A DNA stretch of 38,731 bases from Pararcticibacter amylolyticus (lineage in GTDB: Bacteria; Bacteroidota; Bacteroidia; Sphingobacteriales; Sphingobacteriaceae), in assembly GCF_003130405.1 (NCBI RefSeq), contig NZ_QEAS01000015.1, positions 114,656 to 153,386 of the forward strand. The letters are read 5' to 3'. The notes beneath the pieces are model-generated. The model searched no databases, was not told the origin of the DNA, and saw nothing but the letters and a program-made list of their open reading frames with translations. Positions 2,174 through 32,926 of this stretch are shown one piece after another. The position numbers and the translations under genes are program-made. Each line of letters opens with the position of its first letter. The first letter of the stretch is position 1.

Positions 2174-2262
2174 ACTGTCTAAGACACGACAGAATAATTT
2201 TTTTTTCATATCACTAAGGGATTTTAAGTTTTGCGTTGGCTATACTGAAAACAACCAATCCA

Positions 2263-3435
2263 ATGCCTAAAAGAAAGCGGGAGGAAATCATTCAGGAGCT
2301 TGCCAGAAAGTGGCAGGAGGGTACCATTACAGAGGAAGAAAAAGTAATGTTTAACAAATGGTACCATTCTTTTGATGACACCCTCCTGGAAGAAACATCT
2401 TTTGAAAATCCTGAAGAACTGAGGGAACGGCTATACAGGACAGTTTATGAAAAAGAAGGGATCGGGAAAAGGAGACAAATCCGTTTCCTCAGGCGTGTTT
2501 CAGCTGTGGCAGCGTCAGTACTGCTTATCGTTTCTTTCAGTTTTTATCTCTATTTCGGTCATTCGCAGACAGAGCATGGAAGCCTGAAGGAGAGCGCTCA
2601 TTCTGCCAATATCCTTCCCGGTGGTAACAGAGCAGTTCTCACTCTTGCTGATGGTTCCAGTATCATCCTCGACAGTGCCGAAAACGGAGTCCTGGTTAAC
2701 CAGGGAAATATTTCGATCCGTAAAAGTAAAGAAGGGCAGCTTATATACCAGGTGAGTAGCCAGGTAAAAAAAGCTGTGGGGGAAAGCCTGATCTTCAATA
2801 CAATCACTACTCCACGCGGGGGGCAGTACCAGGTGGATCTGCCCGACGGTACCAGGGTGTGGTTGAATGCAGCCTCTATGTTGAAATTTCCTGCTGTTTT
2901 TAGCTCGAAGGAGCGAAGAGTGGAACTGCAGGGTGAGGCATACTTTGAAGTAGCTTCAGCAGCAGGAAAGGGAAAGAGGCTCCCGTTCATTGTCGTCAGC
3001 GGAGAACAGCAGGTAAGTGTACTAGGTACCCACTTTAATATCAATGCGTATGGTGATGAAGAGATAATGAAAACTACTCTGCTTGAGGGCGCAGTAAAGG
3101 TTTCCAAAACAGGCATTAAACAGTCGGAGATCCTGCATCCCGGACAACAGGCGCGGGTGGGTAGAGATATTAAAGTCGCGCCTGTTGATACCGAACAGGA
3201 AATGGCCTGGAAAAGAGGATATTTTATTTTTGATAACGAAAGCGTTCAGAGCATTATGCGCAAGATTTCCCGGTGGTATGATGTAGACGTAGAATATAAA
3301 GGAAATATTCAGCACCGGAAATACGCAGGGACTATTCAGAGATCTGAGAATATTTCAGAGGTCCTCAGAATAATGGAATTAACAAAATCAATTCATTTCA
3401 GGATAGAAGAGAGGAGGGTCATTGTCATGCCATAG
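2263..3435 (+). CDS. FecR-family anti-sigma factor of PUL A
   Basis: An inner-membrane anti-sigma protein of 390 residues from the ATG at 2263. The frame extends upstream to a TTG at 2236, but the conserved N-terminus (MPKRKREEIIQELARKWQEG) fits the ATG. Order: a short cytoplasmic sigma-binding domain (about 1-70), one transmembrane helix (about 79-98), the periplasmic FecR domain (TTPRGGQYQVDLPDGTRVWL through GEAYFEVA and LGTHFNINAYGDEE) and a C-terminal DUF4974-like domain (FIFDNESVQSIMRKISRWYD onward) that contacts the STN domain of the receptor. It sits between its sigma factor and its SusC, so it should transmit substrate binding at the outer membrane to the sigma factor. Confidence 0.93.
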   Translation: MPKRKREEIIQELARKWQEGTITEEEKVMFNKWYHSFDDTLLEETSFENPEELRERLYRTVYEKEGIGKRRQIRFLRRVSAVAASVLLIVSFSFYLYFGHSQTEHGSLKESAHSANILPGGNRAVLTLADGSSIILDSAENGVLVNQGNISIRKSKEGQLIYQVSSQVKKAVGESLIFNTITTPRGGQYQVDLPDGTRVWLNAASMLKFPAVFSSKERRVELQGEAYFEVASAAGKGKRLPFIVVSGEQQVSVLGTHFNINAYGDEEIMKTTLLEGAVKVSKTGIKQSEILHPGQQARVGRDIKVAPVDTEQEMAWKRGYFIFDNESVQSIMRKISRWYDVDVEYKGNIQHRKYAGTIQRSENISEVLRIMELTKSIHFRIEERRVIVMP

Positions 3436-3476
3436 ATATACTTCCAATTATTATTTACCTAAGATTGACCGGAATA

Positions 3477-3504
3477 ACCAGGAGCGATTAGGCCCGCTCC
3501 TGGT
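3477..3504 (+). promoter_or_regulatory. Conserved hairpin in the leader of susC (PUL A)
   Basis: A perfect 10-bp inverted repeat (ACCAGGAGCG and CGCTCCTGGT) with an 8-nt loop lies between fecR and susC, ending 61 nt before the susC start. The same ACCAGG/CCTGGTAT core recurs in the other two susC leaders at 12080-12108 and 18919-18947. No T-tract follows on either strand, so it does not look like a simple terminator. A role in mRNA processing, stability or protein binding is inferred. Confidence 0.6.
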
Positions 3505-3565
3505 ATCCTGAAGGCCGATCATAAAGAGTGAGCTAACACATTTTATAATTATAACCCTAAAACAA

Positions 3566-6500
3566 ATGTATAAAATTTGTACTGGATTAATATGCAGTTA
3601 CAGAAGCTGCATTCCCTTAAAACTACTGCTACTCATGAAACTAACCATTGTTTTACTGATGGCAGCATTCTTACAGGTCAGTGCTGCGGGGTATGCGCAA
3701 AAAATAAGTCTATCCGGGCAGAACATCAAAATAGAAGAGGTCTTTAAAAAGATAAAAAAACAGTCTGATTATAACTTTTTCTACGATACCGAAATGTTGC
3801 AGCAGACCCAGCCTGTTAGCATCGATGTAAGAAACGTGCCTGTTGAAGTCGTTCTCGAAAAATGTTTTGCGGGACAGCCGCTCACGTTTGTCATTGAGAA
3901 AAAGACAATTGTTGTGATGAAAAAAACAGGAAATGCAGAAACTCTGGTCAGAGGCTCTGTATTACCGGTTGCTATATCCGGAAAAGTAACGGATGAGAAG
4001 GGGGAGGGGCTTCCGGGGGTGAGTGTGCGGGTGAAAGGAACGTCTGCTGCGACCTCCACTGATATTAACGGAGGCTTCAGGATCTCTGTAGGCGATAACA
4101 ATGCGGTGCTGGTTTTCTCTTTTATCGGATTTGCGGCAAAAGAGATCCCCGTAAAAAATCAAACATTTATTTCTGTCAGGCTGGAGCCCGAAGAAAAGGC
4201 ACTTGAAGAAGTCGTCGTGATCGGTTACGGCACACAGAGAAGAACCAGTGTGGTAGGCGCAATTGATCAGATAAAAGCCACCCAGATCGAAGAGAGGCCC
4301 GTAAGCAATCTTACCCAGGCATTGCAGGGCGCATCGGCGAATCTTGTTATCCAGCAACGTAGTATGAACCCCAATGATAATACTATGAACATCAATCTGA
4401 GGGGGGTAACTACTATTACCAACAACTCCCCCTTATTGGTCATAGACGGGATCATTGCGGATGACATCAATATGATGAATAACCTGAATCCTAACGATAT
4501 TGAAAATATTTCTGTTCTGAAAGATGCGGGCAGTGCTGCTATTTTTGGATCCCGCTCTGCAAACGGAGTGCTGCTGGTTACTACCAAGAAAGGAAAGCTG
4601 AACATGAAACCCACATTGAAGTTTAGCGGACTTATGGGTACTCAGCATCCCTCTATACTTCTTAAGCCATTAAAAGGTTATCAGAATGCCCTGCTGCGTA
4701 ACGATGCGTTTGTCAACACAGGATCAAACCCTATTTATTCTTCCGAACAAATCGCACAGTTTGCCACGGGTGACAGCGAATATTTCCTGAAAGGTATTCT
4801 GAAAGATGGAATGCAGCAGAACTATAATTTAAGTATCCAGGGAGGATCCAGCAATACAACCTATATGATCTCAACTGGATATTATGATCAGCGAAGCAAT
4901 TTCAAAGGGCCTGATTATGGTGCCAGACGGTATAATCTGCGCTCTAATTTAACCACCCAGGTAGGCAAATTCAAATTGTCGTCCATCTTATGGTACGACC
5001 GGAATAATGGCAAAGCCTACCAGGGAGATAATGGATTTCTGATAGCTGATGCATCCCGTATCCCTGTATATAATACCTATGTATTGAAGGACGCAGAGGG
5101 AAAGTATTATGCGAATGATGTGCTCACCGGAGGTAATCCGCTTGCAGCCCTGGAGCATGGAGGATATATCAATACAATCAATGATCACTTTCAGGCTAGC
5201 TTAAACGGCGAATTGGAAATTATAAAAGGACTTAAGGCGAAAGGGGTGATTGGATATGATCTTCGCCCGGACAGCCGCTTGATCAGAAGGTTTTACTGGC
5301 CGGTTTACAGCCTTTCCGGAGACCCTGCACCTATCAATCAAAACAATTCCAACGCCTATCATATTGAAGACTTCAGCGCGAAAGCAACTTCTCTGAATAC
5401 ACAGGCGATGCTTGATTTTCAGCGCACCTTCGCTTCTCATCATAACGTAACAGCCTTGGTTGGCTATTCCAATGAATCATACAGGCAGTTACGGCAGGAA
5501 CTGAAAAGACAATATGTAGATCCTGTTTTAGGTATCCCTATTGAGGGAACAATAACAGACGCCACAAGTTATAATACACCCGGTGGTACAACAGAGCGTA
5601 GTATTAACTCCTGGTTTGGCAGGGCCGGATATTCTTTTGACGACAGATATTATGCTGAAGCCAGTTTTCGTTATGATGGCTCAACAAAGTTTGGAAGTAA
5701 CAACCGGTGGGGCTTTTTTCCTTCTTTTTCTGCCGGTTGGCGCATTTCGGAAGAAGATTTCTTTAGTGTTTATAAACAGAAGGTGGGCGACCTGAAGATC
5801 AGGGGCTCATACGGACAATTGGGCGTTCAGACAGCCGACGATTACCAGACGTTTACTACCTACAATATTTACCTTAATCAATACGGGTTCAATAACGTTT
5901 CAGTTCCGGGTACCGGTTATATGTTCGGAAATCCAGATCTCAAATGGGAGACGGCAACTTCATTCAACATCGGGGCGGATGCTTCCTTCTTTAATGGAAG
6001 GCTCAATACATCTTTTGATTATTTTCATAAGAATACGAAAGACATCCTGCTGAAACCCGAAACCCCTCTTACTTTAGGCGGGGCCGTTCCTTTTGCTAAT
6101 CTGGCGGCTATGGCGAATCAGGGTTGGGAGCTTTCAGTCAATTACAATCTCCGGCATAATGGCTTTAGTCATACCTTCGGATTTAACATCGGTGATTCGA
6201 GAAATAAAGTAACAAAATTTGAAGGGAATGAACAGATCTCAAAAGCTGATCAGATTGAACGTATTATCCGGGTGGGATTGCCGCTCTATAGCTATTATGG
6301 TTATAAGACCGATGGATTATTTCAAAATGATGAAGATATTAAGAATTCAGCTCTTCCCGTTGGTGTCCTTCCGCAACCAGGTGATATAAAATATAAAGAC
6401 CGGAACGGCGATGGAATCATTGATGATAGCGACCGCTATGTCCTTGGACATGCTTTCCCAAGATTTACTTTCGGTTTTACCTATGACATGCAGTGGAAGG

Positions 6501-6976
6501 GATTCGATGTAAATATGCTTTGGCAGGGAGTAGGTAAGCGTGATATGGCATTGAGGGGAGAGATTACCGAACCTTTTCACGGCGGATACTCATTTGTCAT
6601 GTTTGAACATCAGCTCGACTACTGGACCCCTGCAAATACAGATGCCAAATGGCCCCGTTTAACTGCGCCCAGTACAGCTTCTTATACCAATAACTATGGC
6701 AAAGGATCTGATTTTAATATCTTCAGTGCCGCTTATCTCAGGTTGAAAAATATTCAGATAGGCTACACTCTCCCCAAAAAGCTTACAGGTCGCCTGGGCA
6801 TGAGCAGGACTCGTGTTTTTGTAAGTGGGCAGAATCTGCTTACTTTTTCTAAGAACTCGTTTATCGACCCTGAATCTACCGAGTTCGGGGCAAATATGAA
6901 TGCTTCAGGGGCTAATAGCGGGCGTAATTACCCCGTGCTGAAATATATTGGTGGTGGTATAAATATCGACTTCTAA
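3566..6976 (+). CDS. SusC/RagA-family TonB-dependent receptor with STN domain (PUL A)
   Basis: An outer-membrane glycan importer of 1136 residues. The N-terminal leader MYKICTGLICSYRSC, placed ahead of the signal peptide (about 17-44), is typical of Sphingobacteriaceae SusC proteins. STN signalling domain about 46-118; carboxypeptidase-regulatory-like beta domain about 137-207 (ISGKVTDEKGEGLPGVSV); then LEEVVVIGYGTQRR, the plug with the SusC signature (ISVLKDAGSAAIFGSRSANG), and a beta-barrel ending in INIDF with a terminal Phe. The STN domain implies transmembrane signalling through the FecR upstream. It pairs with the SusD 18 nt downstream. A GH76 mannanase in the same operon suggests an alpha-mannan oligosaccharide substrate, but the protein alone does not show this. 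Confidence 0.95.
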   Translation: MYKICTGLICSYRSCIPLKLLLLMKLTIVLLMAAFLQVSAAGYAQKISLSGQNIKIEEVFKKIKKQSDYNFFYDTEMLQQTQPVSIDVRNVPVEVVLEKCFAGQPLTFVIEKKTIVVMKKTGNAETLVRGSVLPVAISGKVTDEKGEGLPGVSVRVKGTSAATSTDINGGFRISVGDNNAVLVFSFIGFAAKEIPVKNQTFISVRLEPEEKALEEVVVIGYGTQRRTSVVGAIDQIKATQIEERPVSNLTQALQGASANLVIQQRSMNPNDNTMNINLRGVTTITNNSPLLVIDGIIADDINMMNNLNPNDIENISVLKDAGSAAIFGSRSANGVLLVTTKKGKLNMKPTLKFSGLMGTQHPSILLKPLKGYQNALLRNDAFVNTGSNPIYSSEQIAQFATGDSEYFLKGILKDGMQQNYNLSIQGGSSNTTYMISTGYYDQRSNFKGPDYGARRYNLRSNLTTQVGKFKLSSILWYDRNNGKAYQGDNGFLIADASRIPVYNTYVLKDAEGKYYANDVLTGGNPLAALEHGGYINTINDHFQASLNGELEIIKGLKAKGVIGYDLRPDSRLIRRFYWPVYSLSGDPAPINQNNSNAYHIEDFSAKATSLNTQAMLDFQRTFASHHNVTALVGYSNESYRQLRQELKRQYVDPVLGIPIEGTITDATSYNTPGGTTERSINSWFGRAGYSFDDRYYAEASFRYDGSTKFGSNNRWGFFPSFSAGWRISEEDFFSVYKQKVGDLKIRGSYGQLGVQTADDYQTFTTYNIYLNQYGFNNVSVPGTGYMFGNPDLKWETATSFNIGADASFFNGRLNTSFDYFHKNTKDILLKPETPLTLGGAVPFANLAAMANQGWELSVNYNLRHNGFSHTFGFNIGDSRNKVTKFEGNEQISKADQIERIIRVGLPLYSYYGYKTDGLFQNDEDIKNSALPVGVLPQPGDIKYKDRNGDGIIDDSDRYVLGHAFPRFTFGFTYDMQWKGFDVNMLWQGVGKRDMALRGEITEPFHGGYSFVMFEHQLDYWTPANTDAKWPRLTAPSTASYTNNYGKGSDFNIFSAAYLRLKNIQIGYTLPKKLTGRLGMSRTRVFVSGQNLLTFSKNSFIDPESTEFGANMNASGANSGRNYPVLKYIGGGINIDF

Positions 6977-6994
6977 CAGACAATATTGACCAAA

Positions 6995-8626
6995 ATGAAA
7001 AGGAAACTTATTAAATACGGAACAGGTGTAATTGCCGGGCTATGTTTGTGTCTGACAGCTTGTGTGAAGATGGATGTTGTACCAGCCGACAAGTTTACTG
7101 ACGCCACCTACTGGACTTCAGAGGATAAGGCCAACTCTGTTCTTAATATGGCTTACAGGCAAATGTTTTCAAATAATTACATCTTCAGTAACGAGATCCT
7201 CAGTGATAATGTGTACAACGGTTATGGGACGATAGATGAGAAGATCATTGTATCCGGCTTGGCGGATGCTTCAAATCCCCGGTTTAAAAATGAGTGGGGT
7301 GACAGCTACGCCGGGATAAAAACCTGTCATACCTTCCTGCAAAATGTAGACAGAGTGACCGCCATGAGCGAAGAATTAAGGCTGAGAAGAAAAGCTGAGG
7401 CTCGTTTTATCCGTGCAATGCTCTATCTCGATCTGACCACATGGTATGGAGACATTCCTCATTTTACAGAAGACATTACACTTGAAGAATCAAAGCTTTT
7501 GACGCGTAAACCACAGGCTGAAATACGAGCCTGGATACATAATGAGCTGGATGAGGTCGCCGCAATTCTTCCCTCGAAACAAGGGTATGAAGCTAAAGAT
7601 AACGGAAGAATAACCAGCGGAGCTGCAATAGCCCTGAATGCCCGGGCTTACTTGTATGAAAATAATTGGGAGAAAGTAGCTGAATATGCAGGGAAACTTA
7701 TCAATTCCACTCAATATGGCTCATACGAACTTTTTAACAATTATGAGCAGATGTTCTGGGCCGGAAATGAATATAACAGCGAGATGATTCTCACTTATCA
7801 GTTTGTGCCGGACGTCAGAACATGGGGGAATCTGGTGGACTATGCACCCATGTCTGCAAACGCCAGGCTGAACCTCGCCGGGCCTACCCAGGGACTGGTT
7901 GATAGTTATCTGATGAAAAATGGCGAAAAGTGGACTTCTGCTAATCCCGACTATGCAGACCGTGATCCCCGTATGAATGCCACTATCGTGTATGACGGGG
8001 CGAAATGGACCGATCGTACAGGGACACAGTACACTATTGTGATCCATCCCGAAGGTACCAGCCCTGCAGGAAAGCCCTCTGATAAATACACCGGGATAGG
8101 AACAGCGCAAACTTCAACCGGTTACTATTACCGTAAATTTGCTGATCCTACGCCTTCAACTTACAGGGAGGGGACCTGGGAATCAAGTGCCGACTTGCCA
8201 ATCATTCGTTTTGCCGACATCCTTCTTATGTATGCTGAGGCAAAAAACGAACTGGGCCAGATGGACGCTTCAGTCTGGAACCAGACTATAAAACGTTTAA
8301 GACAACGCGCCGGGTTTGATAATGTAGCTAAGGCTATGGATCTTCCGGCAGGTAATCAGGACGCATTGCGCGAAGTGATCCGCAACGAGCGCAGGGTTGA
8401 GCTTGCTCTTGAAGGCCTCAGGGTTTTCGACATCAGAAGATGGAAAATAGCTGACCAGGTACTGACACAAACTCCCAGAGGAGCAAAATTTGATAAAAGC
8501 AGCGGTACCTACGATTATATCAAGTTACCGGCCGGCAATTTCAGTAAAGACCGTGATTTCCTCTGGGCTATTCCGCGGAGTGAAAGAATATTGAACCCCA
8601 ACTTAACACAAAATCCAGGATACTAA
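6995..8626 (+). CDS. SusD/RagB-family glycan-binding lipoprotein (PUL A)
   Basis: A surface lipoprotein of 543 residues that forms the lid of the preceding SusC. The ATG at 6995 is preferred over an in-frame TTG at 6986 because it gives a clean lipoprotein signal (MKRKLIKYG, hydrophobic core, LTAC). Family landmarks: EARFIRAMLYLDLTTWYGDIPHF in the helical TPR-like region, IIRFADILLMYAEAKNELGQ, VIRNERRVELALEGLRVFDI, and the near-universal C-terminal LNPNLTQNPGY. It should capture oligosaccharides at the cell surface and hand them to SusC. Confidence 0.95.
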   Translation: MKRKLIKYGTGVIAGLCLCLTACVKMDVVPADKFTDATYWTSEDKANSVLNMAYRQMFSNNYIFSNEILSDNVYNGYGTIDEKIIVSGLADASNPRFKNEWGDSYAGIKTCHTFLQNVDRVTAMSEELRLRRKAEARFIRAMLYLDLTTWYGDIPHFTEDITLEESKLLTRKPQAEIRAWIHNELDEVAAILPSKQGYEAKDNGRITSGAAIALNARAYLYENNWEKVAEYAGKLINSTQYGSYELFNNYEQMFWAGNEYNSEMILTYQFVPDVRTWGNLVDYAPMSANARLNLAGPTQGLVDSYLMKNGEKWTSANPDYADRDPRMNATIVYDGAKWTDRTGTQYTIVIHPEGTSPAGKPSDKYTGIGTAQTSTGYYYRKFADPTPSTYREGTWESSADLPIIRFADILLMYAEAKNELGQMDASVWNQTIKRLRQRAGFDNVAKAMDLPAGNQDALREVIRNERRVELALEGLRVFDIRRWKIADQVLTQTPRGAKFDKSSGTYDYIKLPAGNFSKDRDFLWAIPRSERILNPNLTQNPGY

Positions 8627-8679
8627 GAATAAGGACAGGAACACCTCTGTTCTAATGATCACTTTAACGAATTACTAAA

Positions 8680-9801
8680 ATGAAAAAGAACATATTTTCA
8701 ATGGCCGTTTCTTTATTTCTGTTGTTTGTTTTTAGCAGCTGCGATAAAGACAACGAATTTAAAGAAGTAGCGGTAACAGAAGTAAATGCTCTCTATTCTC
8801 CCAATGATGGCCGGAACGTAGTATTGCAATCATCGGCATCATCATCCCTGTATTTTGAATGGGAGAAAGCTACGGCACAGGATAATGGCCTTGTCTATTA
8901 CGATGTGTTGTTCGATAAACCCGATGGTGACTTTTCAAACCCGGTTTATACCGTACCTTCCGACAATAATGGAATCAGTACAGGTGCTAGTATCACACAT
9001 AAAATACTTAACAGGGTTGGTGCTTTGTCCGGTATTGCAACGTCTGCTGAAGGCACGCTTAAATGGACGGTCAGATCATCAAGGGGCCTTACGAAAGTTC
9101 TTTCAAAACAAAGCCGCACTATCAAAATAACCAGACTCAGCAGTATTGAATCGCCAGCAGCCTTATATCTCACAGGCGAAGGTACTGAGGCCGGTGCAAA
9201 CCTTTCAGATGCGTTAATGGTGAAAGGTCTTGAAGGCGGAACTGAATTTGAGATCTATACGAAGTTGCTTGCAGGTAAAAAATATTCTTTCGTTGATTCC
9301 AGGACCAGTGTCTCCAGGACTTTTTCAATTGATGCAGGGGGCACTACCTTTAAAGAAAATGCTGATGGAGCAGTTGTTTCTAAAGATGGCGTTTATAAGA
9401 TCAGTCTCGATTTTAACACTTCTTCCGCATCGGTTAAGGAAGTTACCAAACTCGACTTTTTTATGTGTACTCCTCAGAAAAGAGCGGCATTAACTTATCA
9501 GGGAAAAGGAGTGTGGAGAATAAATGATCTGGTTCCTGACTTTACTACGAATTGGAGTGATGACCGGTATTTCTTCTGGATGACCATTGGCGGAGAAGAA
9601 CAAAAAGTCGGAAGCAAGAACAAAGACAATCAACCTCCTTCCACAACAAGCGGAGCGTATTTTGATCTGTATTTTTATCCAACAGATAAAAATCAGTGGG
9701 ATTATTCGTTTAAGTTCCCCAACAGGTCAGTTCCTAAATGCAGTATAGTGTTCCATCTTAGCGGAGATAGTCCTAAGTATTATTATGAAGTGCTTTACTA
9801 A
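8680..9801 (+). CDS. SusE/SusF-like surface glycan-binding lipoprotein
   Basis: A 373-residue lipoprotein with signal MKKNIFSMAVSLFLLFVFSS and lipobox Cys 20. The N-terminal 120 residues resemble the SusE Ig-like domain: alternation of LYFEWEKA, YYDVLFDKPDGDFSNPVY and LKWTVRSSRG. Two further beta-rich segments follow (about 155-255 and 260-373); in SusE/F proteins such tandem domains bind starch or other glycans at the cell surface. The position directly after SusD and before a glycanase fits a surface glycan-binding protein. Ligand is unknown; alpha-mannan is inferred from the GH76 neighbour. Confidence 0.8.
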   Translation: MKKNIFSMAVSLFLLFVFSSCDKDNEFKEVAVTEVNALYSPNDGRNVVLQSSASSSLYFEWEKATAQDNGLVYYDVLFDKPDGDFSNPVYTVPSDNNGISTGASITHKILNRVGALSGIATSAEGTLKWTVRSSRGLTKVLSKQSRTIKITRLSSIESPAALYLTGEGTEAGANLSDALMVKGLEGGTEFEIYTKLLAGKKYSFVDSRTSVSRTFSIDAGGTTFKENADGAVVSKDGVYKISLDFNTSSASVKEVTKLDFFMCTPQKRAALTYQGKGVWRINDLVPDFTTNWSDDRYFFWMTIGGEEQKVGSKNKDNQPPSTTSGAYFDLYFYPTDKNQWDYSFKFPNRSVPKCSIVFHLSGDSPKYYYEVLY

Positions 9802-9840
9802 TATGCATTATCACTCGGAAGATCAAGCATCAGATAACAG

Positions 9841-11007
9841 ATGAAGAAAATACTTTTAATATCAATATCCGGTATGGCGCTTATGTTAAGCTCCTGCGGA
9901 AAAATAGAGGATGAGTATATTGAGAGAAATCCAATATACCCTGTTAACTGGGAAGCCGCTGCCGACAGCAGCAGTTCCCAGTTTGTGAATGCCTATTGGA
10001 ACAGCACCAGGAATCACTTTAACAATGACAACTTTGGCGCCATCGGTCAGTACGATTATTGGCCGGAGGCTCATGGCCTGGATGTTCTCACTGACGCATA
10101 TCAAAGAACAAAAAACGATAGTTATAAACAGAAGATCTACTCCTTTTACGAAGGGGTGAAAGCCAAAAACGGTGGTCGTTTCTACAATAACTATTACGAT
10201 GATATGGGCTGGCATGGTATGGCTCATCTCAGGGCATTCGAAGCTACAGGTGATGCCCGTTACGAACAATCGGCCAAACAATTATGGGAATGGATCGTTG
10301 CCGGCTGGAATGAAGATGACGGAGGAGGGATACCCTGGAATCATGAAAATACCCCGGAGGGCAAAAGTAAAGGCGTGCCGTCTAACGGCCCCGCAGCTAT
10401 TATTGCAGCCAGGCGCTGGCAGAAATATGGAGAATCCGAAATTGTAAACGGACATAATAATCTGTACTGGCTTTCCAAAATATACAATTGGATAAAAGAG
10501 AACCGTGTAGTACAGCAATCCGGACGTGTATTTGAAAAAATAGATGATAAGAACGGCGACTGGACATATAATGCAGGTACCTATATCGGTGCCGCTTTGG
10601 AATACTATAAGATCACCGGAGAAAAAGTCTATCTGAATGATGCTATGAAAACTGCTGACTGGGCCACCAGTACCCTGGTTAATTCAACGAACCGTGTTTT
10701 GAGCGATTGGGCTGAACAGCAGGATCATGACGTTAATCTCTTTAAAGGTATTTTTGTTCGTTACCTCACACAGCTTATCCTGAACAAAGATGTGCCGGAT
10801 GTAACCAAAAAGAGATACGTGAACTTCCTGAAACACAGTGCAGAGATCCTTTGGACGAAAGGCACTGTTAAGACTCCTGTCGTATTATACGGCTATCATT
10901 GGTGGGAAGCACCATCAAATGGAAAGGCAGCCCTGCGTACACAGTTAAGCGGCGCTATGCTTATGGAGGCTCTCGCTCTGCTAAAAAAAGAGGGTTATGT
11001 AAATTAA
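9841..11007 (+). CDS. GH76 endo-alpha-1,6-mannanase, lipoprotein
   Basis: A 388-residue protein with a lipoprotein signal (MKKILLISISGMALMLSSCG, lipobox Cys 19), so probably surface- or periplasm-anchored. The body is an (alpha/alpha)6-type glycoside hydrolase of family 76. The adjacent aspartates D120-D121 in YYDDMGWHGMAHLRAF match the catalytic Asp pair of GH76 enzymes; other landmarks are GQYDYWPEAHGLDVLTDAYQ, GGGIPWN and DHDVNLFKGIFVRYL. Family 76 cleaves alpha-1,6-mannose backbones, as in yeast mannan, giving PUL A its most specific substrate clue. It is the last gene of the operon; a hairpin terminator follows 33 bases on. An exo-acting partner, GH125, is encoded at 33184. Confidence 0.9.
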   Translation: MKKILLISISGMALMLSSCGKIEDEYIERNPIYPVNWEAAADSSSSQFVNAYWNSTRNHFNNDNFGAIGQYDYWPEAHGLDVLTDAYQRTKNDSYKQKIYSFYEGVKAKNGGRFYNNYYDDMGWHGMAHLRAFEATGDARYEQSAKQLWEWIVAGWNEDDGGGIPWNHENTPEGKSKGVPSNGPAAIIAARRWQKYGESEIVNGHNNLYWLSKIYNWIKENRVVQQSGRVFEKIDDKNGDWTYNAGTYIGAALEYYKITGEKVYLNDAMKTADWATSTLVNSTNRVLSDWAEQQDHDVNLFKGIFVRYLTQLILNKDVPDVTKKRYVNFLKHSAEILWTKGTVKTPVVLYGYHWWEAPSNGKAALRTQLSGAMLMEALALLKKEGYVN

Positions 11008-11040
11008 TTGCTGCCCGCCCTTTAGAAGAAGGCAGAAACT

Positions 11041-11077
11041 ACAGCTGCGTATAAGTTTGTATGCAGCTGTGGTTTTT
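11041..11077 (+). terminator. Rho-independent terminator after PUL A
   Basis: ACAGCTGCGTAT and GTATGCAGCTGT pair over 12 bp with two G-T wobbles, closing a loop of about 6 nt, followed by GG and TTTTT. It ends the sigma-to-GH76 transcription unit. Confidence 0.75.
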
Positions 11078-11154
11078 AAATGCCTGTCACTTACCGCAAA
11101 AGAGCTTTCACTTCACGCTAAACGCAAATTATTTATCCCCGATTCTTTATTTCT

Positions 11155-11185
11155 TTTGCTAAAAGGTTTTAATCAATTATTTTAG
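11155..11185 (+). promoter_or_regulatory. Candidate Bacteroidota promoter for the second sigma gene
   Basis: TTTG at 11155-11158, a 19-nt spacer, then TATTTTAG at 11178-11185, one base off TANNTTTG. It lies 25 nt before the first possible start codon at 11211 and 112 nt before the alternative ATG at 11298. Confidence 0.5.
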
Positions 11186-11210
11186 TAAACGGAATGACAA
11201 CATTTCGAAG

Positions 11211-11852
11211 ATGTTGTTATTTGGAATTTTAGTAGCCAATTATAAAACAGGAAGAGATCTGTCTGATCGCATTCTGCTGGCTGGAAACGGGGCGAGTATG
11301 CAAATATATTCTGATGATTTAGAGTCTTTTAACGCGTTATATCAGGAGCATAGTGCAAAGGTCTACCTCAATATATTGAGGATGGTCAAGGATCCGGAGG
11401 CTGCTCAGGAAATCCTCCAGGACATTTTTGTGAAGGTTTGGGAAAAACGCGGTCTTATTCAGCCCGGCAAACCCTGGGCTCCGTATCTGTATCAGGTTGC
11501 CAAACATTCTGTCTACGATTATTTCCGCAGGGCTGTCGTTGTTAGAAAAGCTGAAGCTCATCTTAAAGCAGAAGATGACGAGTCATATTCTCATATTGAG
11601 GAGGATATTTACTTTAAAGAAAGTCATAAATTATTGTGGAGGGCAATTGGAAAATTATCTCCCCAGAGAAAACAAGTATATACCTTATGCAAGATTGAGG
11701 GTAAAAGCTACTGCGAAACCAGCCGCATTCTCGGGATCTCCGTATCTACCGTAAGCGATCATATGCTTAAAGCCAACCGCTTTATACGTTCAGAACTGGT
11801 CGCATCCGAGGTCTTTACCACGCTTCTTATTATACTTTCCATCAACCAATAA
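11211..11852 (+). CDS. ECF RNA polymerase sigma factor of PUL B
   Basis: A sigma-70 family protein of up to 213 residues. Region 2 is FNALYQEHSAKVYLNILRMV followed by DPEAAQEILQDIFVKVWEKR; region 4 is LSPQRKQVYTLCKIEGKSYC with helix-turn-helix ILGISVSTVSDHMLKANRFI. The first about 29 residues are not typical; an internal ATG at 11298 (MQIYSDDLESFNALYQEH) gives a more usual 184-residue protein and may be the true start. Normally a fecR anti-sigma follows, but here the next 318 bases hold only a broken fecR remnant before susC. Its regulator may therefore be the intact FecR at 17667, or it may be unrestrained. It is clearly different in sequence from the sigma at 1598. Confidence 0.88.
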   Translation: MLLFGILVANYKTGRDLSDRILLAGNGASMQIYSDDLESFNALYQEHSAKVYLNILRMVKDPEAAQEILQDIFVKVWEKRGLIQPGKPWAPYLYQVAKHSVYDYFRRAVVVRKAEAHLKAEDDESYSHIEEDIYFKESHKLLWRAIGKLSPQRKQVYTLCKIEGKSYCETSRILGISVSTVSDHMLKANRFIRSELVASEVFTTLLIILSINQ

Positions 11853-11909
11853 AAAAATATTTCAGAGCAGGGTTCTCCTCTTTTTGAACCGTATATCAGG
11901 AAAGGCAGG

Positions 11910-12060
11910 TTTAAATGGCTGGCAGGGAATGACCGTTAATTCAGAGGTCATAACCTTGGTAAACATTCAAAACAGTAACTTTTAAGTATTACGATCCTGA
12001 GACTAACCACAGGACCTATATTTTAAAGCAGAAAGGAGGAGTATACAAGCGATGAAATGA
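11910..12060 (+). pseudogene. Decayed fecR remnant between sigma and susC
   Basis: The 318-bp gap between sigma and susC aligns by eye to both ends of the fecR at 17667. The leader keeps AGAGCAGGGTT and CCGTATATCA (here from 11873, there from 17617). Bases about 11910-11968 resemble the first codons of that gene with small indels. Bases 12022-12060 align without gaps to its last 13 codons, encoding FKAERRSIQAMK-stop against FKIEGRQVMVMK-stop, and resemble ERRVIVM at the end of the fecR at 2263. An in-frame stop and loss of about 1.1 kb in the middle make it non-functional. Alignment was by eye, so the exact break is uncertain. Confidence 0.65.
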
Positions 12061-12070
12061 ATCTTTACTT

Positions 12071-12242
12071 AAGGTAAGAATACCAGGGTGCGCCAACACT
12101 CCTGGTATGATAGCTTACCATGATCTAATAGTTCAGTCAAAATCAATAAGTAAACCCAATTAACAAATCTATGATTTTTTATGATCTTTTTAAACCGGGG
12201 CTCCAGGCTTCCGGTGCTAACCAAATATGGCGTATTATGAAA
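12071..12242 (+). repeat. Direct repeat copy 1, susC leader and signal-peptide start
   Basis: The first 50 bases are identical to 18910-18959. After a short variable patch, similarity stays very high through the susC start codon and the first 22-24 codons (MIFYDLFKP... to MKL). Both copies lie between a fecR end and a susC start, about 6.84 kb apart, marking a segmental duplication. Confidence 0.85.
12073..12119 (+). promoter_or_regulatory. Conserved hairpin in the leader of susC (PUL B)
   Basis: Nested inverted repeats: GGTAAG with CTTACC outside, ATACCAGG with CCTGGTAT inside, and GTG with CAC closing the hexaloop CGCCAA. The element ends 52 nt before the susC start and is identical to that of PUL C at 18912-18958. 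It shares only its core with that of PUL A. No T-tract follows. Confidence 0.65.
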
Positions 12243-15200
12243 CTCACCATGATCATCATGACTGTAGTTTTAACGCAGGCAGCCGCTTCAGGCCTGGCGC
12301 AGAAAATTACTTTCATTCAGAAAGATGCGTCTTTGAAAACGGTATTCAGGGAGATTACCCGGCAAACCGGTTACCAGGTAATCTGCGACGGGAATCTGGT
12401 AAAAGACGCTCCTAAAATAAATGCAGAGTTCAGAAAGGCAACAATTCAGGAAGTATTAAATGCCTTCTTTACAGATCAAAAGGTTGAATGGACAATTCAG
12501 GAAGATATCGTAATTGTCAAAAGAGCATCGGGAAAAGAGGCGATTAAAATACCCGATCCTGTGCATATAACCGGTAAAGTGGTAGACGAAAATGGAGAAT
12601 CACTTCCCGGCGTAAGTGTCAGAATAAAAGGGACATCAGTAGCAACAAGTACCACGGTCGACGGAAAGTTCAAACTTGAATCCGCAGACAGGAACGTGAT
12701 CCTGATCTTCACTTTTGTCGGGTATACAACGAAAGAAATTTCTTTCAGTGGTCAGCCATCACTTTCAGTCCAGATGCTTCCTGAAAAAAAGGCTCTGGAA
12801 GAAGTAGTGGTAGTAGGCTACGGAACTCAAAAAAAGAAAGATGTCATAGCCGCGGTTTCTTCTGTAAAAGGGAAAGATATAGAAAACCAGCCTGTAGCGA
12901 CACCTCAGTCGCTAATACAGGGACGTGCGGCAGGGGTTCAGATAGTTCAGAATTCGGGCGCTCCCGGCAGCGCAGTAACAGTCAGGGTAAGAGGAACAAC
13001 TTCTATCAATGCCGGCAATGATCCTCTTTATATTGTAGATGGCGTTCCTGTAGAATCCGGTACCTTAAATGGGATCGGCCTTAGTGGCAGTAAGACATCC
13101 GCACTTTCAGCAATCAACGCCGACGACATCGAATCAATGGAAGTATTGAAGGATGCAGGAGCCCTGGCGATCTATGGTTCAAGGGCCGCCAACGGTGTTA
13201 TATTAATTACGACAAAACGGGGAAAGAAGGGCGCCACCAGCTATAGCTTTAATTATTACAGAGGGATTCAATCTGACAATAAGAATACCCGGGTAGATCT
13301 CATGAACAGTCAGCAGGCCCTGGAACTAGTCCAGGAAGGAAGGGCCAATGCTTTGAATAACGGCGTGAGTTCCGTTTACGGCTGGATTCTGCCCGATAGC
13401 CTTGGAAACTTGTATAATACTGACTGGCAGGATGCGCTGTTCAAAACGGCTGCCGTCTCCAACTATGAAATGGCGATCAGGGGAGGTGAAAATAAGCTGC
13501 GGTTTTCCCTGAGCGGAAGTTATCTTGATCAGGATGGTATCATGATTAATTCGGGTTACAAAAGAGGTACCGGGCGGCTGAACCTTGATTATGATGCAAG
13601 CAGCAAATTGAAGCTGGGTACCAACCTGGCATTATCACGATATAAAAATAACCGCGTATCCACAGAGGATGGCGACAGGTCACTGATCCAGGTTGCCTTG
13701 AAGAAATCGCCTTCTATGCCAATTTATAATGCCGACGGAACCTACTACAACAGTGACGTCTCAGGTTTTATTAATCCCGTTAACTGGGCAAATAAAGTGA
13801 AATACGAGAACGAAGTTTCTTCTGTCACAGGGAATATTTATGGCGAATACACCTTTATTCCCCGGCTTGTTTTCAGAACTACTTTCGGATTGAATTATGC
13901 ATCGGTGCTCGATAACTTCTTTCAGCCTTCCGACGCTGTCCGTAACGGAACAGCCAGCGGACAAACGTTCTCATCAAACGTGACGGGATGGGTGAATGAA
14001 AATACGCTTAATTACTCATTCAACATCTCCCGTCATCAGGTTTCCGCTCTATTAGGATACAGTCAGCAGGAAAGGAGTTCTTTTGCAATAAGGGCAGAGG
14101 GAAAGGATTATGCGACTAATAATATTTCAACATTAAATGCCGCAGTTACTCCTACAGCTGCAAATTCATCTGAATCGGCCTCCGGCTTATCCTCTACATT
14201 TGCGAGGCTGGGCTATTCTTATGCCGACAAATATTTGTTTGAGCTGACCGCCAGGCGGGATGGTTCTTCGAGGTTTGGTGCAAACCGGAGATACGTGTTA
14301 TTTCCCGCGATTTCGGGAGCATGGAGGATATCCAAAGAAAGCTTTTGGAAGGAGTCTTCCCTGGTGAATGACCTGAAGCTAAGGGGCAGTGCCGGGAAAA
14401 CAGGTAACCAGGATATCGAAGATTACATCGCCCAGGGACAGTATGCCACTACCGGAAGCTATATCGGCCAGAGCGGCATTTATATGAGTATCATTCCCAA
14501 TCCTGATCTTACCTGGGAAACAACGGTTCAATATAACGGAGGGCTCGACATTTCGCTCTTCAACTCAAGGATCACACTTAGCGCAGATGCCTATGTGAAA
14601 AAAACCTCTAATTTATTATTGAAAGTTGAGTTGCCGAACACTTCCGGTTTTAGCAATGTATTGAAAAATATAGGATCGACGGAGAATAAGGGTCTGGAAT
14701 TTAACCTGAATACAATCAATATTGACAAGAAGGACTTTTCATGGAGCACTAATTTTAACCTTTCCCTCAATAGGAATAAAGTAACCAAATTAAACGATGG
14801 GGTAAGTAATATCCTGGTTGGCAGCGGTCAGGGTTTATCAGGTTCTCTTGTATCATACAGCATTATCCAGGTTGGAAAACCCATAGGGAGCTTATATGGA
14901 TGGAGACAGTCAGGCGTATACCAGTATTCTTCAGATAATACCACAAACAAGACCACCTCGAGCGTCGGGATAAACGGATATGTATTCAGGGGAGGCGACC
15001 TCAATTTTGAAGATGTAAACGGGAATAATACAATTGACGACAATGACCGGATGATTATAGGCAACGCACAGCCGGATTTTACCGGAGGTTTTAGTAATAA
15101 CTTAAAGTACAAGTCTTTTGATCTGAATTTCCTGATGACGTTCTCCTACGGGAATGATATGGTGAACGGCACACGGTATTCAGCAGAGTCGGCCACCGGT

Positions 15201-15569
15201 TTTAACGGATCGCTGGCATTGTTGCGCAGGTGGAGAAATGAGGGAGATGTTACCGACATGCCTAAAGTCAATTATGCCGATCCTGCAGGAAACAGGAGGT
15301 TCTCCAACCGCTGGATTGAGGATGGTTCTTACCTGAGGTTAAAGACGATCACACTGGGATATTCGCTTCCTTCGGGCCTTGCCACAAGGCTAAAAGTAAG
15401 ATCCTGCCGCATGTATGTGATGGCGCAGAACGTGTTCACCATCACCAATTATACCGGCTATGACCCCGAAGCCAGCGCATTCAATGATAATGTGGCACGA
15501 ATCGGAATTGACCAGGGTACCTACCCCCAATACCGTTCACTGACCTTTGGTATTAATGTTGGATTTTAA
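12171..15569 (+). CDS. SusC/RagA-family TonB-dependent receptor with STN domain (PUL B)
   Basis: An outer-membrane importer of 1132 residues. The N-terminal leader MIFYDLFKPGLQASG precedes a signal peptide (about 24-44). STN domain about 46-117; regulatory-like beta domain about 132-203 (ITGKVVDENGESLPGVSV); then EEVVVVGYGTQKKKD, the plug with the SusC signature (MEVLKDAGALAIYGSRAANG), and a barrel ending INVGF. Its first 22 or so residues and upstream leader nearly match the PUL C receptor, while the rest diverges. The STN domain calls for a FecR partner, but the local fecR is broken. Substrate cannot be inferred, since no enzyme is encoded in this unit. Confidence 0.95.
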   Translation: MIFYDLFKPGLQASGANQIWRIMKLTMIIMTVVLTQAAASGLAQKITFIQKDASLKTVFREITRQTGYQVICDGNLVKDAPKINAEFRKATIQEVLNAFFTDQKVEWTIQEDIVIVKRASGKEAIKIPDPVHITGKVVDENGESLPGVSVRIKGTSVATSTTVDGKFKLESADRNVILIFTFVGYTTKEISFSGQPSLSVQMLPEKKALEEVVVVGYGTQKKKDVIAAVSSVKGKDIENQPVATPQSLIQGRAAGVQIVQNSGAPGSAVTVRVRGTTSINAGNDPLYIVDGVPVESGTLNGIGLSGSKTSALSAINADDIESMEVLKDAGALAIYGSRAANGVILITTKRGKKGATSYSFNYYRGIQSDNKNTRVDLMNSQQALELVQEGRANALNNGVSSVYGWILPDSLGNLYNTDWQDALFKTAAVSNYEMAIRGGENKLRFSLSGSYLDQDGIMINSGYKRGTGRLNLDYDASSKLKLGTNLALSRYKNNRVSTEDGDRSLIQVALKKSPSMPIYNADGTYYNSDVSGFINPVNWANKVKYENEVSSVTGNIYGEYTFIPRLVFRTTFGLNYASVLDNFFQPSDAVRNGTASGQTFSSNVTGWVNENTLNYSFNISRHQVSALLGYSQQERSSFAIRAEGKDYATNNISTLNAAVTPTAANSSESASGLSSTFARLGYSYADKYLFELTARRDGSSRFGANRRYVLFPAISGAWRISKESFWKESSLVNDLKLRGSAGKTGNQDIEDYIAQGQYATTGSYIGQSGIYMSIIPNPDLTWETTVQYNGGLDISLFNSRITLSADAYVKKTSNLLLKVELPNTSGFSNVLKNIGSTENKGLEFNLNTINIDKKDFSWSTNFNLSLNRNKVTKLNDGVSNILVGSGQGLSGSLVSYSIIQVGKPIGSLYGWRQSGVYQYSSDNTTNKTTSSVGINGYVFRGGDLNFEDVNGNNTIDDNDRMIIGNAQPDFTGGFSNNLKYKSFDLNFLMTFSYGNDMVNGTRYSAESATGFNGSLALLRRWRNEGDVTDMPKVNYADPAGNRRFSNRWIEDGSYLRLKTITLGYSLPSGLATRLKVRSCRMYVMAQNVFTITNYTGYDPEASAFNDNVARIGIDQGTYPQYRSLTFGINVGF

Positions 15570-15579
15570 AACAGCGACG

Positions 15580-16989
15580 ATGAAAAATATCAGACATATA
15601 TTGATTATTATAAGCCTCATAACATCTTTTTCATGCAAGGTAACCGATCAGGTGCCTGAGAGCATTATCACAGCGGTTAACTTCTATAAAACAGCAACGG
15701 ACGCCGATAATGCGATCAACGCCTGCTATGATGCCTTGCAGGGAAGTCCGAACAATTATGAAATCTGGGGCGATGGCCGGACGGACGTTCTGGCGAGTAC
15801 TGACCGCTCTGGCAGTGCAGATCTTCAGGTCGCCAGTGGCAATGTATCTTCATCGAATAGTTACGTCGGATGGGGAGCACTTTATGCCGGAATTAACCGC
15901 TGTAATGGCGTGTTGAAGCATGTACCCGATATAGCCGATCCTGCTCTGACGAACAGGAAGGACCGGATTATCGGAGAAGCATATTTTCTAAGGGCTCTGT
16001 TTTACTTCTATTTAACCCGGACATTCGAAAATGTACCCTTAATCCTGGAACCCTATGAAAACCTGGACGCCGACTTTTTTCCCGTTCAGAGTGACAGGGC
16101 GACGATTTTCGCTCAAATTGAGTCCGACCTTAAGCTGGCAGAACCCTTAATTCCTGATCTGCCTTTTGCCAATACACTTGAAAATAAAGCGAAAGCCACA
16201 AAGGCAGCAGTCCGCTGTGTGCTTGCAGACCTCTATCTCTGGCAAAAGAAATATGAGCAAGCCGCTGCCATGGCAGATCTTGTAATCAATAGTCCCGCTA
16301 AATACACATTGGTATCGGGCAAGGACTACGCTACTTTGTTTGCCGCCAAAAATACGAGTGAATCTATTCTCGAGGTCCAGTACAGTAACACCTATGCTGA
16401 GTACACACAACAAGGAGCGGTAAACTCCATCAGTGAACTGTTTCTGCCTTTAGGGGGGACGGTCACTGGCGGTAACTGGCGGTACCAGCCCTCGGCTGCT
16501 GTATTAAACCTACTTACTGCAAGTGACCTGAGGAGCTCAGCTACTTACAAGAATACAGGGAGTAAGCCTGACCCTTATCGTGATGCGAATAAGACATATA
16601 TAGCAAAATACCCGGGCACCATCAGTTCAAATGTCATGTATCTCGACGCGAACCGGATCATCTATCGCCTCGCCGAAATCATACTTTTCAAAGCAGAGGC
16701 TTTAAATGAACTGGGACAAACCCCGGAAGCTATTTCTCTGCTCGATCAGATCAGGAACCGGGCTGGAATAGGCGGCACTTCTGCCTCCACACAATCTGAA
16801 GTCCGGCTGGCCATTGAGAATGAAAGACTCGCCGAACTGGCGTTTGAAGGGAAGAGATATTACGAACTGATCAGGAGAGGCCGCTATGCAGATGTCACAG
16901 GTTTTACCGATCCGAACTGGCTTAGATGGCCTATTGCTGCTACCGAAATAACAAAGAATACGAATTTAATTCAGAATCCGGGATATTAA
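15580..16989 (+). CDS. SusD/RagB-family glycan-binding lipoprotein (PUL B)
   Basis: A surface lipoprotein of 469 residues pairing with the preceding SusC. The ATG at 15580 gives a proper signal peptide (MKNIRHILIIISLITSFSC, Cys 19); a longer frame from a TTG at 15547 overlaps susC and is unlikely. Landmarks: GEAYFLRALFYFYLTRTFEN, IIYRLAEIILFKAEALNELG, IENERLAELAFEGKRYYELI and the C-terminal NTNLIQNPGY. It lies 10 nt after susC in one operon. It is shorter than the other two SusD proteins in the window (543 and 644 residues). Confidence 0.94.
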   Translation: MKNIRHILIIISLITSFSCKVTDQVPESIITAVNFYKTATDADNAINACYDALQGSPNNYEIWGDGRTDVLASTDRSGSADLQVASGNVSSSNSYVGWGALYAGINRCNGVLKHVPDIADPALTNRKDRIIGEAYFLRALFYFYLTRTFENVPLILEPYENLDADFFPVQSDRATIFAQIESDLKLAEPLIPDLPFANTLENKAKATKAAVRCVLADLYLWQKKYEQAAAMADLVINSPAKYTLVSGKDYATLFAAKNTSESILEVQYSNTYAEYTQQGAVNSISELFLPLGGTVTGGNWRYQPSAAVLNLLTASDLRSSATYKNTGSKPDPYRDANKTYIAKYPGTISSNVMYLDANRIIYRLAEIILFKAEALNELGQTPEAISLLDQIRNRAGIGGTSASTQSEVRLAIENERLAELAFEGKRYYELIRRGRYADVTGFTDPNWLRWPIAATEITKNTNLIQNPGY

Positions 16990-16999
16990 AAGATGCATT

Positions 17000-17494
17000 A
17001 TGAGACTGTTAAGATTAATTAAGCTTTTCTGTTTGATTGTAAGTTGTTTAGCTCTTGCCTTCATGAGCGGATGTAAAGAGGAAGATGAAAACTATCCTTC
17101 CGTACCCGATGCCGTATACTTAGTTTCTAATTCTGTTACAGGCCCTGGGAGCACAGCTTTAACAACCATTTCAAATTCCGGATCGGGGAAAGTTACGGTG
17201 TCTCCTGCCGTTGCAAAGGTTTATGTAAACACAGTAAAGGATTTTGACGTAACAATAAGGTATGCATTGTCCGGTACAGCGGTTGCAGGAGTAAATTATA
17301 CTCCTCCTGCAGAAACTGCCGTCACCATTCCGGCGGGCCAATGGTATGCAAGTATCAGGATCCCTGTTATTAATACGCCTGTATTAGTTGATAAAACAAT
17401 TGTTATTACATTGATTTCTGCGTCTAATGACGTTCAATTAGGGTTAGGGACTGATAGGACATACAAAACATTCACTTATACTCTGCAGAAATAA
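17000..17494 (+). CDS. Small lipoprotein with an Ig/Calx-beta-like domain (DUF1735/DUF4843-like)
   Basis: A 164-residue lipoprotein: signal MRLLRLIKLFCLIVSCLALA, lipobox MSGC with Cys 25. The remainder is one beta-rich domain with the pattern FDVTIRYALSGTAVAGVNYT, then AVTIPAGQWYASIRIPVIN and KTIVITLISASNDVQLG, which resembles the Calx-beta/DUF1735 type of domain found at the N-terminus of Bacteroidota surface glycan-binding proteins. It takes the SusE position after SusD and probably helps bind a ligand at the surface. The family assignment is by pattern only. A hairpin terminator follows and ends PUL B. Confidence 0.7.
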   Translation: MRLLRLIKLFCLIVSCLALAFMSGCKEEDENYPSVPDAVYLVSNSVTGPGSTALTTISNSGSGKVTVSPAVAKVYVNTVKDFDVTIRYALSGTAVAGVNYTPPAETAVTIPAGQWYASIRIPVINTPVLVDKTIVITLISASNDVQLGLGTDRTYKTFTYTLQK

Positions 17495-17525
17495 CCGGGG
17501 TACTTTTAAATCCATGTAAAGAAAA

Positions 17526-17575
17526 ACCGGGCGTGTCAGTGAAGCCGGCATGCCCGGTAATAGTTTCTTTATTCC
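17526..17575 (+). terminator. Probable terminator after PUL B
   Basis: ACCGGGCGTG and CATGCCCGGT form a 10-bp stem with one G-T wobble around a 13-nt loop, followed by AATAGTTTCTTTATT, a broken T-tract. It suggests that the fecR at 17667 is transcribed from its own promoter, though I found no convincing -33/-7 pair in the 90 bases before it. Confidence 0.55.
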
Positions 17576-17666
17576 GGACATTGGTTTACACCAGAAAAAA
17601 GATAAAAAAATAATATAAGAGCAGGGTTCCCCGCATCGCTGTCCGTATATCATAAAAAAACAAGTT

Positions 17667-18896
17667 TTGAAAGATTCACAGGAACTAACCAGATTATTCA
17701 AACGGTACCTGGCAGACGAATGTTCGGAGGATGAAAAGAAGCTATTATTTGAATCTTTATCGGCTGAAGAATTCAGGTCTCTCTATTTACAGTTGATAGA
17801 AGAGAACCTCGAACTTAATGCAGATGAAACGCTTCAGAATCAACCTCACGTCGGGGAGATCCTTCAGGAAGCAAGAAAAAACATAGCAGAGAGAATAGGA
17901 GAGCCGCCGTCAATACCAGCGCAGATGTCTAAGCGCTTTTGGCATTGGAGTATTCCCGCTGCCGCCGTCATACTGTGCACCTGTGCAATAACTTTTTATT
18001 TTTTCCGGGCTGAAAAGGTATCGGAGCGCATACCCGCTGCTTATACCGCAGCGCCCGATATAGAGCCGGGCGGAAATAAAGCCATTCTAACTCTTGCCGA
18101 TGGCTCGAAGATCTCATTAACAGATGCCGGAAACGGAACCCTTGCCAGGGAGCAGGGAGTATCGGTCACCAAATCCGCAGATGGTCAGATCACATATAAT
18201 ATTGAACAGGCTGGCAACGCGGGAGACAGTGCAGAAGACACCTTTAATACCATCGCTACTCCCCGAGGGGGACAGTATAACGTGGTATTGCCTGATGGCT
18301 CCCGGATCTGGTTGAATGCCGCATCCTCCATTACCTATCCGGTTAAATTCGGAAAAGAGCAAAGGAGGATAGTGTTGCAGGGTGAAGCTTATTTTGAAGT
18401 TGCCCGTCAGCAGGGCGGGGGCAGAAGCGGGAAAATACCTTTTATAGTAGCAACCGCTGATCAGGAAGTGGAGGTGCTGGGTACTCATTTCAATATCAAC
18501 GGCTATACAGACGAACCGATGGTGAAAACCACCTTGCTGGAAGGCAAGGTCAGGGTGAGTCAGAAAAGTGGTGGTAACGCAGTTCTCGCTCCGGGCCAGC
18601 AATCCCGTACTTCGCGTGACCGGAACAATGTACAGGTCGTCAATGCCGATCTGAAGGCAGAAATGGCATGGAAAAGTAACCAGTTTTTCTTTGAAGACGA
18701 ACCCATCGAATCGATCATGAGACAGATTGCAAGATGGTATGATGTGGAGGTGGTCTATAAGGATGATTTGAAGAATAAAACTGTTTGGGGTTCAATGACG
18801 CGGTTTAGCAATATTTCTAAAGTACTAAATATAATCGAACAGACCGGAAATGTACATTTTAAAATTGAAGGAAGGCAGGTAATGGTTATGAAATAA
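17667..18896 (+). CDS. FecR-family anti-sigma factor without an adjacent sigma gene (PUL C)
   Basis: An inner-membrane anti-sigma of 409 residues. The start is a TTG at 17667; no ATG occurs before residue 92 or so, and the N-terminus read from TTG (MKDSQELTRLFKRYLADECS) fits the family. One transmembrane helix at about 94-113, FecR domain (ATPRGGQYNVVLPDGSRIWL, GEAYFEVA, LGTHFNINGYTDE) and a C-terminal DUF4974-like domain (FFFEDEPIESIMRQIARWYD). No sigma gene precedes it: upstream lies the end of PUL B. Its leader aligns with the sequence starting at the sigma stop codon of PUL B, so its original sigma partner is probably a copy of the one at 11211. It may now control that sigma in trans. Confidence 0.93.
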   Translation: MKDSQELTRLFKRYLADECSEDEKKLLFESLSAEEFRSLYLQLIEENLELNADETLQNQPHVGEILQEARKNIAERIGEPPSIPAQMSKRFWHWSIPAAAVILCTCAITFYFFRAEKVSERIPAAYTAAPDIEPGGNKAILTLADGSKISLTDAGNGTLAREQGVSVTKSADGQITYNIEQAGNAGDSAEDTFNTIATPRGGQYNVVLPDGSRIWLNAASSITYPVKFGKEQRRIVLQGEAYFEVARQQGGGRSGKIPFIVATADQEVEVLGTHFNINGYTDEPMVKTTLLEGKVRVSQKSGGNAVLAPGQQSRTSRDRNNVQVVNADLKAEMAWKSNQFFFEDEPIESIMRQIARWYDVEVVYKDDLKNKTVWGSMTRFSNISKVLNIIEQTGNVHFKIEGRQVMVMK

Positions 18897-18909
18897 AGCT
18901 TTACAGAAT

Positions 18910-19082
18910 AAGGTAAGAATACCAGGGTGCGCCAACACTCCTGGTATGATAGCTTACCACGCGATTATTAGTTCAGTCAAAATCAGTAAGTAAACCCAAT
19001 TAACAAATCTATGATTTTTTATGATCTCTTTAAGCCCAGGCTCCATGCCTCCGGGACTAACCCCATATTGCGTATTATGAAA
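18910..19082 (+). repeat. Direct repeat copy 2, susC leader and signal-peptide start
   Basis: Partner of 12071-12242. It starts 14 bases after the fecR stop and runs through the first 24 codons of susC. Identity is complete over the first 50 bases and very high up to the signal peptide, after which the receptors diverge. Confidence 0.85.
18912..18958 (+). promoter_or_regulatory. Conserved hairpin in the leader of susC (PUL C)
   Basis: The same nested repeat as in PUL B: GGTAAG/CTTACC outside, ATACCAGG/CCTGGTAT inside, GTG/CAC around CGCCAA. It ends 52 nt before the susC start at 19011 and begins 16 nt after the fecR stop. Confidence 0.65.

Positions 19083-29272: not shown

Positions 29273-32926
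<3,654 letters not shown>

Follow-up and report, generated by a model that had tools for sequence, protein, structure and literature searches.

Hairpins upstream of three susC genes of Pararcticibacter amylolyticus most likely belong to DonS-like antisense RNAs that probably act as brakes on sugar-importer genes

DonS-type antisense RNAs and three susC loci of Pararcticibacter amylolyticus

RNAs of the DonS type (Cao et al. 2016, described in PMC7366714, PMC10994844, PMC11697453 and PMC9723704) are 78–128 nt long, lie divergent to susC homologues and lower their expression (PMC7366714). Five further members were shown by Northern blot in Bacteroides thetaiotaomicron (PMC7366714), and the count of such RNAs in this species was later raised to 32 (PMC10994844). 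There, both negative and positive correlations of antisense/susC pairs are noted (PMC10994844); the positive ones count against the reading proposed below. The mechanism of DonS is termed unknown in a passage of PMC11697453. PMC9723704 cites the Bacteroides fragilis cases and proposes a similar study in flavobacteria, and among open-licence papers we found no description of susC antisense RNAs outside Bacteroides; DonS-like RNAs are presented as a trait of PULs in gut Bacteroides.

The window analysed here, a stretch of 38,731 nucleotides of the P. amylolyticus genome, contains three PULs (A, B and C), all with SusC and SusD proteins as identified by Pfam and each with a hairpin upstream of susC. 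We consider it likely, judging from sequence, that all three hairpins serve as intrinsic-terminator stems, each ending a cis-antisense RNA of about 85 nt, DonS-like in kind. As with DonS, the predicted RNAs lie opposite susC and overlap its leader; their predicted lengths are 85–87 nt here, in the range of the described 78–128 nt, and 72–134 nt across the family. DonS-like PULs carry an ECF sigma factor and an anti-sigma factor; here PUL A has both, PUL B the sigma factor only and PUL C FecR only. The known cases come from Bacteroides, whereas RNAs of this kind, compared by description, are predicted here in P. amylolyticus, its relatives and other Bacteroidota. FopS/GibS of B. thetaiotaomicron are likewise short and repress susC through pairing at its translation start; the FopS RNAs regulate several PULs in trans, four of the 14 being described as antisense RNAs (PMC11697453), whereas the RNAs predicted here each lie opposite their own target. 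The genes and hairpins are as follows.

1598–2173, plus strand: ECF-type sigma factor of PUL A (Pfam)
2236–3435, plus strand: FecR anti-sigma factor of PUL A (Pfam)
3477–3504, minus strand: PUL A hairpin, the predicted antisense-RNA terminator stem; 10 bp, 8-nt loop; covariance model 23.1 bits on minus
3566–6976, plus strand: susC of PUL A (Pfam: STN, plug, barrel)
11211–11852, plus strand: sigma factor of PUL B, no FecR adjoining (Pfam; tblastn)
12082–12106, minus strand: PUL B hairpin core, outer stem 12073–12078 with 12114–12119; model 18.6 bits on minus
12171–15569, plus strand: susC of PUL B (Pfam; STN below cut-off)
17667–18896, plus strand: FecR anti-sigma factor of PUL C, no sigma gene adjoining (Pfam; tblastn)
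18921–18945, minus strand: PUL C hairpin core, outer stem 18912–18917 with 18953–18958; model 18.6 bits on minus
19011–22481, plus strand: susC of PUL C (Pfam; N-terminal extension, STN not called by Pfam)

Position, letters and folding of the hairpins

The window sequence confirms the three hairpins at the positions given in the initial annotation, and its distances from hairpin end to ATG are right for PUL A (61 nt) and PUL C (52 nt), with PUL B at 51 rather than 52 nt. The arrangement it described, a fecR end followed by susC, is borne out by Pfam in PULs A and C; PUL B shows only a short fecR-end-like stretch in the DNA alignment, and tblastn with both FecR proteins finds no FecR remnant between the sigma gene and susC at E < 10. 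PUL B (sigma factor, no FecR) and PUL C (FecR, no sigma factor) have nearly identical leaders, and the two PULs may share one sigma/FecR pair.

All three hairpins do have the ACCAGG/CCTGGT core in common, and the window holds four copies of the pattern ACCAGG-N(4–20)-CCTGGT where its shuffles average 0.03, the fourth copy (31566–31588) lying within a beta-galactosidase gene. As a signature, the core fails: it occurs at 30 places in the 6.3-Mb genome (control 3), and other susC genes carry a hairpin with different stem letters, so we rejected it. Locus L153, the closest relative of B and C found, does not retain their outer stem GGTAAG/CTTACC. B and C are 93% identical across the predicted antisense RNA, so the window copies are not independent. 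No Rfam family matches the window at its gathering score, and a search for similar DNA in plasmids found none.

When folded as plus-strand RNA, the three hairpins beat their shuffles (z of -5.2, -3.4 and -3.7). The earlier proposal that structure is under selection holds: the hairpins are real and maintained by selection. The folds also fit the view, put forward in the initial annotation, that the hairpin works within the susC mRNA as a protective, processed, or protein- or RNA-binding stem, and a sense transcript starting upstream would carry the same stem. We nevertheless regard this explanation as unlikely given the strand evidence described below.

Hairpins in STN-type leaders and their strand

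Genes matching the SusC model number 56 in the own genome, 24 of STN type and 32 others, with STN type mostly assigned from the length of the N-terminal extension. The STN-type leaders often contain a strong hairpin, positioned 50–100 nt upstream of the first ATG and built from quite different stem letters. A larger set was drawn from this genome and eight relatives, in which the STN matches listed gave 129 candidate leaders; L125 and L170 were dropped for want of a suitable ATG, leaving 127, several of them near-copies. A hairpin is present in 114 of these and absent in 13. Strong hairpins occur in 97 real leaders and 14 shuffled ones. Across the hairpins the stem letters vary widely with pairing retained; the covariation count is inflated by selection because the hairpins were chosen by a stem search, and the wobble and shuffled-leader tests are the fairer ones.

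The T-tracts are on one strand. In the 127 leaders, a minus-strand T-tail above 2.5 follows 65 of 114 hairpins and a plus-strand T-tail none (p = 5.5e-18), in line with the earlier remark that no T-tract follows on the plus strand; in the comparison with shuffled leaders, minus T-tails number 62 against 1.55, with shuffled plus T-tails at 0.15. Minus T-tails likewise exceed plus T-tails in the STN leaders of the own genome (Wilcoxon p = 0.0006; 24 STN-type and 32 other leaders). We therefore rejected a plus-strand terminator. The position between fecR and susC would suit a terminator or attenuator acting on the plus strand downstream of fecR, or a DNA palindrome bound by a protein, but the 0/114 count speaks against the former, and stem letters that vary widely while pairing is kept are unlike a single operator; we hold this pair of explanations to be extremely improbable.

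Wobble pairs point to the same strand as the T-tracts. Under symmetrical scoring, 156 pairs are possible on minus only and 48 on plus only, with 79 against 14 loci (p = 3.6e-12), and at L108 (near A) and L153 (near B and C) an A-C mismatch on the plus strand is a G-U pair on the minus strand. Both the T-tract and wobble asymmetry and these two loci argue against a stem acting in the susC mRNA, whereas the single wobble of B and that of C, each plus-only, speak for it. The T-tails of A, B and C are weak (1.9, 2.0 and 2.1), and a strict terminator scan at the three hairpins returned nothing on either strand. The minus-strand assignment, predicted from sequence features, is thus well supported for the family and less so for each window copy.

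A covariance model, R1, was built from 43 minus-strand hairpins, nine of the 52 distinct hairpins being left out of the alignment. In the own genome its best 19 matches (E ≤ 0.075) are all antisense and lie 78–154 nt before an STN-type-like ORF; 12 come from the training set and seven do not, and when three untrained matches were checked with Pfam, two showed STN, one of them below the cut-off, and L327 showed none. Hairpins B and C are absent among the whole-genome matches listed, and 15 held-out loci gave five antisense matches. In a named Bacteroidota set of 80 loci from many families, none used in training, an antisense leader match is found in 19 of 38 STN-type loci versus 0 of 42 other susC loci (p = 3.0e-8). 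Of the 20 antisense matches at named STN loci, 18 lie 45–164 nt before the first ATG, the L242 match overlaps the called ATG, and the L260 match, 497 nt before the first ATG, was left out of the 19/38 count. In Bacteroides oleiciplenus, from the genus with proven RNAs of the DonS kind, six of seven matches are antisense within the leader. Minus T-tails follow 19 of 32 hairpins at the named STN loci and seven of 33 at the other susC loci, with none on the plus strand in either group. The hairpin element is thus enriched before susC in relatives, so the refuting condition set in the initial annotation, a lack of such enrichment, did not apply.

R1 also recognises ordinary terminators, because its best match in the window is another hairpin, at 17518–17560. 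This strong hairpin, located between the DUF4843 gene and fecR, carries a minus T-tract (24.6 bits) and a weaker plus match (13.8), and may terminate transcription of PUL B in both directions. Elsewhere, three non-STN susC genes of Flavobacterium (L258, L294 and L299) have a hairpin in common that lies about 95 nt upstream of the ATG and bears a strong minus T-tract, and in the own genome a perfect inverted repeat of 27 bp is found 213 nt upstream of a non-STN susC (L048, C75).

A promoter-like box and the predicted antisense RNAs

As fecR and susC are both encoded on the plus strand and a minus-strand terminator would lie between them, the terminated transcript would therefore begin in or after the susC start. 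At this point the leaders contain CAAANNTA, the complement of TAnnTTTG, the box of the main Bacteroidota sigma factor and the -7 box of DonS-like RNAs, which is present at A, B and C too. The candidate boxes and the predicted RNAs, with inferred ends, are as follows.

3563–3570, minus strand: PUL A TACATTTG (TAnnTTTG), candidate -7 box over the susC ATG at 3566
12164–12171, minus strand: PUL B TAGATTTG, candidate -7 box
19004–19011, minus strand: PUL C TAGATTTG, candidate -7 box
3471–3557, minus strand: antisense RNA predicted for PUL A, about 87 nt
12074–12158, minus strand: antisense RNA predicted for PUL B, about 85 nt
18913–18998, minus strand: antisense RNA predicted for PUL C, about 86 nt

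Between -25 and +20 of the first ATG, CAAANNTA occurs in 17 of 24 own STN leaders versus one of 32 others, with 1.75 expected from shuffles in each group. The exact box is found in 86 of the 127 larger-set leaders and is absent in 41, sitting at -3 or -7 from the ATG. The two registers of the conserved CAAATGTATRAAA relative to the ATG place it in two reading frames, and we therefore rejected a peptide signal as its explanation. At the named loci the box is found in 20 of 38 STN-type versus two of 42 other leaders, and in B. oleiciplenus it sits at -7 in seven of 16. Measured from box to hairpin, the predicted RNA of the family has a median length of 93 nt (range 72–134, n = 62), and the hairpin-to-box gap is near-constant (median 65, n = 62). 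A -33 box (TTTG), expected for DonS-like RNAs, was not enriched at any spacer of 10–31 nt in the 127 leaders; we do not treat its lack as decisive, because a passage of PMC7366714 reports that Flavobacterium johnsoniae likewise showed no -33 motif.

A stem acting in the susC mRNA offers no account of the -7 box. The box also bears on another explanation, in which the minus-strand terminator merely insulates fecR and the sigma gene from stray antisense transcription, the RNA having no regulatory role. PMC7366714 does warn that some antisense RNAs may be noise; however, a promoter-like box at a near-constant distance, restriction to one receptor type, and the repression by DonS experimentally shown in Bacteroides (PMC7366714, PMC11697453) argue against simple insulation, which we judge to be quite improbable. 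The T-tract, the wobbles and the promoter-like box on the minus strand make a cis-antisense terminator the simplest reading, one supported at the level of sequence by the strand signals, by the box and the distance separating it from the hairpin, and by the restriction to STN-type susC. In the initial annotation, action by a small RNA was one option among several, and these minus-strand features were missed; its suggestion that susC is controlled apart from sigma/fecR probably stands, whereas an mRNA processing or binding stem is disfavoured by them.

For a cis-antisense RNA, minus-strand transcription would start from the TAnnTTTG box that overlaps the start codon of susC, yield RNA complementary to the 5' leader of this gene and stop at the hairpin about 85 nt downstream. 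By analogy with DonS of B. fragilis, the RNA may pair with the susC leader and lower susC–susD expression, and sigma-driven sense transcription may outrun it and so lift repression. Predicted RNAs B and C, given their 93% identity, may each act on both leaders. We propose that these RNAs, overlapping the start of sugar-importer genes, probably act as brakes, and that they are probable members of the DonS-like kind, which would then range far more widely and be linked to sigma/FecR-type susC.

The YUNR loop motif, counted on either strand, is present in 45 of 81 loops (shuffle mean 26.4, highest 39 of 2000), and such loops could serve sense-antisense kissing, a point that also suits a functional stem in the susC mRNA; the loop idea is suggestive only, because shuffled loops make a weak control and the ordinary terminators used for comparison numbered 27. 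More tentatively, the antisense brake might be ancient and form, throughout the phylum, the third component of the sigma/FecR/STN-SusC cassette, with one RNA per receptor gene, a U-turn terminator loop (on either strand) starting sense-antisense pairing, and near-identical B and C copies coupling neighbouring PULs that split one sigma factor and one FecR; we see this as possible but doubtful.

Should the signature denote genuine RNAs, an antisense brake of its own would accompany the sigma/anti-sigma switch at each of dozens of receptor genes in a single environmental genome, and at receptor genes in many groups of Bacteroidota. It would also provide a simple sequence rule for predicting these RNAs and a clear set of strains for testing the mechanism that PMC11697453 leaves unexplained.

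At the coding side of the same putative start codons, the STN-type susC frames of the window (3566–3634, 12171–12240 and 19011–19080) open about 22 codons ahead of an MKLT-type signal-peptide start.
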